Shown: one piece after another, positions 36,370-46,116 of the stretch
How positions within the stretch are numbered: position 1 is the stretch's first letter
Layout of the letters: each line of letters begins with the position of its first letter
Source: Kriegella aquimaris
GTDB taxonomy: Bacteria; Bacteroidota; Bacteroidia; Flavobacteriales; Flavobacteriaceae
DNA: 64,000 bases
Assembly (NCBI RefSeq): GCF_900103215.1
Contig: NZ_FNGV01000001.1
Coordinates: 496,001-560,000 of the forward strand
Direction: 5' to 3'
Made by a program: the position numbers and the translations under genes
The notes under the pieces: generated by a model
Database searches by the model: none
Seen by the model: the letters and a program-made list of their open reading frames with translations, nothing else
What the model was told of the DNA's origin: nothing

Positions 36370-36446
36370 GGCGAGGTAGCTCAGGTGGTTAGAGCGCAGG
36401 ATTCATAACCCTGAGGTCGGGGGTTCAAGTCCCCCTCTCGCTACCA
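36370..36446 (+). tRNA. tRNA-Met (anticodon CAU)
   Basis: A complete 77-base cloverleaf including an encoded 3' CCA. The acceptor GGCGAGG pairs with TCTCGCT using G.U at both ends. The D-arm is GCTC/GAGC, the anticodon stem CAGGA/CCCTG with anticodon CAT at 36404-36406, and the T-arm GGGGG-TTCAAGT-CCCCC. The A.C pair at the bottom of the anticodon stem and the absence of three consecutive G:C pairs argue against the initiator; an elongator tRNA-Met is most likely. A lysidine-modified tRNA-Ile2 cannot be fully excluded. Confidence 0.92.
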
Positions 36447-36448
36447 AT

Positions 36449-36485
36449 AAAAATGGGCTTCCATGCAATTGGAAGCCCATTTTTT
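36449..36485 (+). terminator. Intrinsic terminator of tRNA-Met
   Basis: AAAAATGGGCTTCC, loop ATGCAATT, GGAAGCCCATTTTTT: a 14-base-pair stem with a T-run that starts two bases after the tRNA CCA end. Confidence 0.9.
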
Positions 36486-36490
36486 ATTTC

Positions 36491-36512
36491 TATGTACAAC
36501 ATATGTACAACA
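36491..36512. repeat. Tandem TATGTACAACA repeat behind tRNA-Met
   Basis: TATGTACAACA occurs twice in perfect tandem (36491-36501 and 36502-36512), 45 bases after the tRNA. Short direct repeats of this sort at tRNA 3' flanks can be recombinase arm sites or att remnants. No integrase is nearby, so this reading is inference. Confidence 0.45.
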
Positions 36513-43532: not shown

Positions 43533-43567
43533 TTTTCCGTTGCAAACATAATTAATTTGGTAGGCTA

Positions 43568-45397
43568 ATGGTAAATGAAGTGAAACAGGAAAAAACAAAA
43601 CTTGCGATTATTGGTTCTGGTGCGACTGCTATCTACTTTTTAAAGCATCTAAGCGATGCACAGGATTTTGTCCAAACGAGTGTGGAAAGTATTACCATAT
43701 TTGAGAAGTCGGATACGCTGGGCATGGGCATGCCTTATAATCCAGCAACTACAGATATTTATAATATGTCCAATATTTCGTCCGAAGAGATTACCGAACT
43801 TATGGAATCTTTTGGCGATTGGCTTCGCTTACAAGATGATGAAACCCTAAGGGCATTAAATATTTTCGAAAGGCCAATTAAAGATTCCGAAGTTTATAGT
43901 AGGATTGCTTTGGGAAAATACCTGCACTCACAGTATTGTACATTGATTGGCAAATTAAGAGAATCAAACTTGACAGTTGTAGAGTTGCCTAGAACCGAAA
44001 TCATTGATATAAAACCAAAGGGAGTAAATTTAGAGATTATAGCGACCGGTTCGGGTAAAGAAACCTTACTATTTAACAAGGTAGTAATAGCGACGGGACA
44101 TTATTGGAACGAAGATGACAAGCCGAACAAGGGATATTATGCCTCTCCCTGGCCAATTCATAAGCTTCTTCCTAAAGAAAATTCCCTGTTCAATTTCACT
44201 GTTGGAACATTGGGCGCTTCATTAAGTGCATTTGATGTGGTTTCATCGCTCGCACATCGCCACGGGAAATTCGTGCAGTACAAAAATGGGCTACGTTTTG
44301 ATAAATACGAGAATGCTCAAGACTTTAAATTGGTCATGCATTCAGCTGAGGGCTGGCTTCCCCACCTACAATATGAGCAACGAAATGCCATGCGGGAAAT
44401 TTATCGCCATACCGATAGAGAACAAATTATGTCAATTGTGGATGAGATGGGGTTTCTAAGTTTAAAAACCTATTTCGATACCATCTGCCGAGCTGCACTT
44501 ATAGAAGCATTTACGAAGGATAATATTCCATCGATTGTGGAACAACTAAAAAATCCCACGATTGGTTTTGAGAAGTTTGTGGACATGATGTCCGAGCGCC
44601 ATGAGTACTTTGACTCTTTTGAGGGGATGCGAAAGGAATTGGTCGGGGCAAAAATATCGGTAGAACAGAATCGACCAATTCATTGGAAGGAGACATTGGA
44701 CGACTTAATGTATTGCTTGAATTTTCACGCCGAGCTACTACCCGCAGAAGATTATTTATTTTTGAAGAAGAAGGTCATGCCATTCCTAATGAACGTAATT
44801 GCAGCCCTACCTTTATCATCAGCGCATATACTTCTGGCATTGGAGGAAGCTGGGTGTATAGACATGGTAGCGGGCAGAGTAACTGTTATGGATGAAGACG
44901 GTAACGGAAATAAAACGGTAATAGAAATAGAGGAAAATGACGGGAATTTTAAAAAATACGAATATAATCTTTTTATTAATTGCGCCGGTCAGAAAGATAT
45001 CGGATTAGAAAATTATCCTTTTAAATCATTGATAGAAAATAATATGGTTAGAAAAGCAAGGGCCAAATTTAATTCTGTAATTGCCATTGACCAATTGGAT
45101 AGTGGCCATTCAGAGCGGGAGGTCTTTGTCCGCGGTTGTGATACTTTTCTTTATACGGGAGGTATTGACATCGATGCGGCCTATCGAATAATTGATAAAG
45201 ATGGAAATGCTAACGAGAAGATTCACGATATTACCTTTACACACACTGCTGGGTGCCGACCATATTCCTATGGTTTACAAGCATGTAATGCCACAAGTAA
45301 AATTTTAGTTGATTCTTGGCAGGAGCATACTAAGGGCCATTTACGGGGAGATATAGAAATGGTTAGCCAACTATATGAAGAAAATGCCGATCTGTAA
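43568..45397 (+). CDS. FAD/NAD(P)-binding protein (NAD_binding_9 type)
   Basis: A 609-residue cytoplasmic flavoprotein-like protein. The dinucleotide-binding motif AIIGSGATAIYFLKHL lies at residues 13-28, a second Gly-rich stretch KVVIATGHYW near 172-181, and TVGTLGASLSAFDVV follows. The family resembles SidA/HpyO-type proteins with an N-terminal FAD/NAD(P)-binding domain, found beside oxidoreductases in many bacteria. The substrate is not predictable. It is 35 bases after the GH13 gene and probably cotranscribed. Its downstream side is occupied by a broken IS3 transposase, which marks the end of the stress-type island. Confidence 0.82.
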   Translation: MVNEVKQEKTKLAIIGSGATAIYFLKHLSDAQDFVQTSVESITIFEKSDTLGMGMPYNPATTDIYNMSNISSEEITELMESFGDWLRLQDDETLRALNIFERPIKDSEVYSRIALGKYLHSQYCTLIGKLRESNLTVVELPRTEIIDIKPKGVNLEIIATGSGKETLLFNKVVIATGHYWNEDDKPNKGYYASPWPIHKLLPKENSLFNFTVGTLGASLSAFDVVSSLAHRHGKFVQYKNGLRFDKYENAQDFKLVMHSAEGWLPHLQYEQRNAMREIYRHTDREQIMSIVDEMGFLSLKTYFDTICRAALIEAFTKDNIPSIVEQLKNPTIGFEKFVDMMSERHEYFDSFEGMRKELVGAKISVEQNRPIHWKETLDDLMYCLNFHAELLPAEDYLFLKKKVMPFLMNVIAALPLSSAHILLALEEAGCIDMVAGRVTVMDEDGNGNKTVIEIEENDGNFKKYEYNLFINCAGQKDIGLENYPFKSLIENNMVRKARAKFNSVIAIDQLDSGHSEREVFVRGCDTFLYTGGIDIDAAYRIIDKDGNANEKIHDITFTHTAGCRPYSYGLQACNATSKILVDSWQEHTKGHLRGDIEMVSQLYEENADL

Positions 45398-45474
45398 CTA
45401 TGAAGTAATCACTTGAGCTCGCTATCAAAACGTTGGAGCGTTAAAAACTACTTGTGAAAGAATATAATCATACC

Positions 45475-46116
45475 AAACCTCATGAAGTCGTTACATAAAG
45501 ACTTTTTAGAAGTGAACCCGAAAATAGGTAGGAACCAGCTATTCTATATCCTGATAGAAAATGAACTGCTCGTAAAAAAAAATATGCTTCCAGAACCACC
45601 AATTCGTATCACAGGTTCCACACGTATGGTAACATCATAAAAGACTTGAAGATAGATAGGTCCGATCAGGTTTAAGCCTCTGACATAACCTATGCGGATT
45701 CTGTTATCTAGCCCCCATAACGGATATATGTTCACGCAAGATCGTTGGATATGACCCGAGCGATAACCCGGAACTCAATGGGTGCCTTAGCGCTCTTAAC
45801 AAAACCATTTACAACGCCAAGAACACCGACCGGCTTATCCATCATTCGGACAGGGGTATTCAATACTGTAACACGGATATTGAAAAGAAAGAAAATAGAA
45901 ATCTGTATGACCGAAGAAAACTATTGTTACGAAAACGCGATGGCAGAAAGTGTCAACGGAATACTTAAAGAAGAATTCTATCTCAACCAGACCTTTACCA
46001 GTGCGGTTCACACCAAGAAAGCGACCAAAAACGCAATCAAATTGTATAACAACAACAGATTACATTTATCTTTAGAGTATAAAACACCTAATTACGTGCA
46101 CCAATATACCGCTTAA
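45475..46116 (+). mobile_element. Degenerate IS3-family transposase (orfB remnant)
   Basis: Pieces of an IS3 orfB transposase in shifting frames. From 45482: MKSLHKDFLEVNPKIGRNQL and LFYILIENELLVKK. After a one-base slip in an A-run come NSYHRFHTYGNIIKDLKID and ASDITY, with a stop at the expected Trp. Then LNGCLSALNKTIYNAKN, HHSDRGIQYCNTDI and, in the last open frame (45745-46116), ENAMAESVNGILKEEF and NNNRLHLSLEYKTPNYV. The Asp-Asp-Glu signature region is recognisable, but at least two stops and two frameshifts make it inactive. orfA and terminal inverted repeats were not found. Confidence 0.8.

Follow-up and report, generated by a model that had tools for sequence, protein, structure and literature searches.

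The tRNA-Met (CAT) gene at positions 36370-36446 (+ strand) of the window, which is the 64-kb stretch of DNA analysed here from a 1.24-Mb contig of the 6.06-Mb Kriegella aquimaris genome, very probably marks the attL end of a decayed tRNA-targeting element, an ICE or a genomic island of the Arm-DNA-bind_5/SAM_5 integrase type, situated in a variable zone that was filled later. The gene has a genomically encoded CCA, and its 3' half is likely element-derived. It is followed by a hairpin terminator (36447-36490, + strand), recognized from sequence and laid out in the same way as at other tRNA-side copies of the site described below. Past the terminator, 44 nt 3' of the tRNA, TATGTACAACA is found exactly twice, at 36491-36501 and 36502-36512 (+ strand), which agrees with the original prediction that a tandem repeat lies just after tRNA-Met. 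The tandem pair occurs in this form only once in the genome. It is not a product of chance and is best read as a bipartite arm-type site, GTACAACATANGTACAACA, represented here by GTACAACATATGTACAACA at 36494-36512 as the putative attL arm. The site starts 48 nt behind tRNA-Met, within the range of 43-73 nt observed for its class. The two copies of TATGTACAACA, which had been taken as short direct repeats bounding the block of stress-type genes behind the tRNA, make up a single arm-type site at one end.

A scan of 249 Flavobacteriaceae genomes for exact matches to the 19-mer GTACAACATANGTACAACA, with the reversed motif as a control, detected the motif in 63 genomes, and the control gave no hit. 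Each of the 30 loci inspected falls into one of three classes. In 18 loci, the motif follows a tRNA gene (Leu or Met) at a distance of 43-73 nt, with a hairpin terminator between them; in 3, a displaced tRNA 3' half takes the place of the tRNA; and in 9, a tyrosine integrase gene begins immediately before the motif on the opposite strand. The motif-associated integrases are composed of Arm-DNA-bind_5, Phage_int_SAM_5, and Phage_integrase domains. For two complete elements, one in G127 (~53 kb, tRNA-Met) and the other in G175 (~61 kb, tRNA-Leu), both ends were examined. In each, one copy of the motif follows the restored tRNA (attL) and the other lies beside the integrase, while the original tRNA 3' half, which begins in the anticodon stem-loop and ends in its own terminator, is located ~100 nt past the integrase-side motif (attR). 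The element of G127 is an ICE because it encodes conjugation genes, i.e., those for a TraG-type ATPase, a coupling protein, and TraM, along with a metal-transport ATPase. Because the motif is tied to tRNA genes, to integrases, and to paired attL and attR ends, it is best read as the predicted arm-type site of Arm-DNA-bind_5/SAM_5 integrases, whose binding is suggested by its position only. A phage origin of the motif was considered and rejected, given that only two viral contigs carry it. No description of the motif was found in the literature searched.

The Kriegella genome itself has eight copies of GTACAACATANGTACAACA. Four of them lie at integrases (contigs C11, C20, C35, and C39), with a displaced tRNA piece after each, and three others come after the genes for tRNA-Leu(taa), tRNA-Asp, and another tRNA-Met, whose pieces, as matched by eye, are those at C20, C39, and C35. 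Among the four tRNA-side copies, only that of the window is without a displaced partner half. No second 3' half of the window tRNA-Met was found in the assembly at up to three mismatches, nor was any arm site or tRNA half detected above chance within 88 kb downstream of the gene, so the third copy of the repeat or the tRNA 3' end that had been expected near 46 kb turned up neither there nor elsewhere. The supposed loss of the integrase was, on the other hand, borne out: no SAM_5 integrase is encoded on the window contig, and the ORFs examined as far as 114 kb include no integrase. Because complete elements pair attL with attR, and both the integrase and attR are missing here, the window copy is an orphan attL arm site. 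Integration at the window tRNA-Met can be deduced from one end only.

The site was probably formed as follows: strand exchange by an integrase would have taken place at tRNA-Met, most likely near its anticodon loop, and the incoming element would have supplied a new tRNA 3' half, the terminator, and the arm-type site GTACAACATATGTACAACA. Later losses, by deletion or through overwriting by further insertions at the hot spot, would have removed the integrase together with the second arm and the original 3' half that had been displaced (attR), the order of these losses being likewise a reconstruction. What is left would be a scar, attL, that forms the left edge of a ~78-kb variable zone, which now opens with a stress-gene set that was probably acquired laterally. 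Such a reading explains both the encoded CCA and the trailing repeat of the window tRNA-Met. At the orthologous tRNA-Met, CCA is encoded in four of the five cases with the arm motif and in one of the 16 without it. The anticodon-stem variant of the window tRNA-Met also exists, however, in motif-free relatives (Zeaxanthinibacter and Ulvibacterium), and replacement of the 3' half therefore lacks independent proof. If the tandem repeat were a normal component of the transcription or termination of tRNA-Met, unrelated to mobile DNA, its constant distance behind the tRNA terminator would be understandable, but the same motif precedes the integrase genes in 9 of the 30 inspected loci, appears at attR sites as well, and is absent from most orthologous tRNA-Met genes, which makes such an explanation scarcely credible.

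The assignment of tRNA-Met as an attL end was compared with the state of the orthologous site in relatives, all of which belong to other genera, the Kriegella genome being the sole member of its genus in the collection. The genes upstream of tRNA-Met are syntenic in the relatives, and the 3' flank differs in all of them. G234, Arenibacter certesii, and a Pricia MAG have the arm motif behind the orthologous tRNA-Met, and G032 has a degenerate form of it there. Zobellia and Maribacter stanieri have integrase-like genes directly after the tRNA, and a displaced half occurs 19 kb beyond in Z. amurskyensis and 49 kb beyond in M. stanieri. The island of Z. amurskyensis (L198-L199, G278:C28) is of a different class, in which an integrase-like gene lies directly behind the tRNA and a second one follows the displaced 3' half, an order that suggests two tandem elements. 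The stress block was absent from the orthologous site in 20 of 20 relatives, in which 2.6-10 kb of the flank was read; vertical descent, which the presence of the block in the same order in all relatives would have favored, thus finds no example at this site. Collinearity with G001, the best syntenic relative, reaches as far as the START-domain gene next to the tRNA (36.1 kb), where it breaks in agreement with the predicted left edge of a tRNA-anchored island, and resumes in the same orientation at 114.3 kb in window coordinates. No common orthologues were found at the DNA or protein level between the break points, which are separated by 78 kb here and by 93 kb in G001. As judged from this one relative, the variable zone is ~78 kb long and bounded by conserved chromosomal order. 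Because the noncollinear zone runs to ~114.3 kb, the IS3 remnant at 45.5-46.1 kb, once regarded as the far edge of the island, is internal to it.

Gene spacing changes as abruptly after tRNA-Met as had been claimed, with gaps of 440, 361, 451, 458, and 481 nt (ORF coordinates) in the block versus 0 of 41 gaps exceeding 350 nt among sampled left-backbone ORFs. Composition gave a mixed answer. The block is only mildly atypical in codon usage, with ~3% of random backbone gene sets being equally far off, and the idea that its composition is strongly foreign was discarded; in contrast, the region of 46.1-64 kb is clearly foreign (GC 0.364; 0 of 400 random sets as far off), and codon usage at 64-114 kb is normal. 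These differences in codon usage suggest that the variable zone is a mosaic. The original prediction of an old integrated island was therefore largely right about its origin, in that the island is tRNA-anchored and foreign to the site, but not about its far boundary or the role of the repeat.

The genes of the block, all on the + strand, are present as previously listed. They encode a DUF2383/PA2169-family four-helix-bundle protein (36887-37351; TIGR02284); a 212-aa protein without a family, unnamed before (37713-38351), of which a weak relative (29%) adjoins an SDR gene in Euzebyella; a SemiSWEET sugar transporter (38803-39069; NF037968, above the cut-off); a Csp-like four-helix 4-Cys copper-storage protein (DUF326, 39528-39845; TIGR04401, below the cut-off); an SDR oxidoreductase of the PRK06701 subfamily (39945-40808; NF005214, above the cut-off); a single-domain response regulator receiver (40829-41269); a GlgB/TreZ-like CBM48+GH13 enzyme (41751-43532; below all equivalog cut-offs); and an FAD/NAD(P)-binding protein (43568-45397), which just 4 of 199 family genomes encode. 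The degenerate IS3 transposase is also there, as an IS3-family orfB remnant (45470-46116, + strand) that resembles IS3-family insertion sequences in its integrase-core homology (rve_3) but, unlike them, is broken in three frames: residues ~25-248 can be read only across three frames with stops (45470-46113), and orfA was looked for and not found. With neither orfA nor orfB intact, the IS3 element is non-functional.

The genes for SemiSWEET, the 4-Cys protein, the SDR, and the receiver recur in the identical order in seven Maribacter loci, with a GH13 gene nearby, and in Cellulophaga baltica and G194 the GH13 gene lies next to the FAD gene. The block is thus most simply regarded as a recurring Flavobacteriaceae set, a general stress set by family membership, in line with the stress-type character ascribed to it before; the desiccation role suggested along with it would be hypothetical. 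Again by family membership only, the genes of the set are likely to serve in handling redox and copper, in moving sugars, and in alpha-glucan metabolism within a stress response of the receiver type. No common upstream motif of the kind expected for a stress promoter was found among the genes of the set above the level of shuffled sequences. The window GH13 groups with that of Z. amurskyensis (89% identity, support 100/100), apart from three other Zobellia, and this grouping is a sign of lateral transfer. The gene and ~105 nt of upstream DNA (window 41645-43537; L080:9091-10983) are 82% identical to the DNA of Z. amurskyensis, and the neighboring genes differ, which suggests a single-gene exchange. 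A preference of stress sets for tRNA 3' flanks was considered but not adopted, as the cases, in Maribacter (tRNA-Arg) and Leeuwenhoekiella, come from too few independent genera. The Maribacter loci concerned are near tRNA-Arg(tct) (L092, L093, L096, L098, L099, L103, L107, L115, and L124), and in L093 the first stress gene starts ~135 nt behind the tRNA. No arm motif was found at the tRNA-flanking stress loci of Maribacter and Leeuwenhoekiella.

How the stress block came to lie behind the scar can be considered in two other ways. It is possible, though unlikely, that the block was cargo of the very element that left attL and that the island ended near IS3. The block begins right behind attL and is absent from the site in relatives, the gene density shifts at the tRNA, and the grouping of GH13 with that of Z. 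amurskyensis is a sign of transfer, all of which would fit an imported cargo. No element end exists at 46 kb, however, and the variable zone goes on to 114.3 kb; moreover, in the loci examined, the stress set elsewhere was never inside an arm-motif element, and the difference in composition between 36-45 kb and 46-64 kb points to more than one acquisition. Less probable still is that the block is an old native neighbor of tRNA-Met in the genus, brought to the scar by deletion of the element, so that only attL would be foreign. The mildly atypical codon usage and the partial conservation of the gene order in a chromosomal cluster of Maribacter are compatible with such an origin, but the absence of the block from the orthologous flank in all 20 relatives, the transfer shown by the GH13 phylogeny, and the rarity of the FAD gene in the family argue against it. 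We retain the reading of an attL scar followed by later mosaic filling, and regard tRNA-Met as a hot spot at which the stress gene set found across the family collects along with other cargo.

Outside attL but inside the variable zone, a degenerate copy of a dispersed cassette-type repeat exists at 46540-46746 (+ strand). The repeat is ~200 nt long, forms a long imperfect hairpin, ends like GCACAAC...CCGTTGTGC with variation from copy to copy, and elsewhere in Flavobacteriaceae separates single genes in same-strand arrays (L022 and L174 in G032, L248-L249 in G131, L250 in G186, and L177, L180, and L183). The arrays in G032, G131, and G186 open with a 375-aa XerA/IntI-like tyrosine recombinase, which is below the NCBI integron integrase cut-off and, in two of the three, above the XerA/integron-integrase-like cut-off; in G032, the recombinase and array platform lie directly behind the orthologous tRNA-Met. 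By analogy of layout, the arrays look like an integron, and no description of this repeat system was found in the literature searched. After the IS3 remnant, a pair of Crp-type regulator and DJ-1-type genes (47274-49224) has DNA matches of 78-86% in the same order in G258 (G258:C1:1266663-1269993), where a copy of the repeat lies just upstream of the pair. We tentatively propose that GTACAACATANGTACAACA may be an arm-type signature, so far undescribed, that tRNA-targeting ICEs share across the family and that allows dead scars to be recognized by sequence alone, and that the tRNA-Met hot spot may in addition host an undescribed integron-like cassette system, with its relic at 46540-46746. A short motif would then reveal, without any integrase, a tRNA gene as a past docking site of mobile elements, and would offer a cheap map of live and dead ICE sites across Flavobacteriaceae.

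CTnDOT and NBU1 are Bacteroidota elements with tyrosine integrases. When compared by domains and conjugation genes, the integrases that own the motif resemble theirs in having arm-binding, SAM-like, and catalytic domains, and the G127 element has TraG and TraM, whereas the window is without any integrase. The NBU1 integrase IntN1 is mentioned in a study of Riemerella anatipestifer (PMC6764341), a species of the wider bacterial group to which the window genome also belongs. Its 10K and 50K islands lie at or downstream of tRNA genes and have tyrosine integrases, shown to be functional, and terminal direct repeats of 53 bp and 19 bp at other sites (PMC6764341, PMC9745183); no mention of arm sites was found in these papers, and those islands are intact, in contrast to the decayed site in the window. 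The tRNA-targeted genomic islands catalogued by Islander (PMC4383910) integrate into a tRNA gene that is restored by element DNA, with the displaced fragment marking the other end, as is the case in G127, G175, and the three other sites of the Kriegella genome. The window site differs from them in having neither the displaced fragment nor the integrase, just attL and its arm site, and is well supported as an ordinary kind of feature, the decayed attachment site of an ICE or island that was afterwards filled in as a mosaic, with an unusually clear molecular mark.
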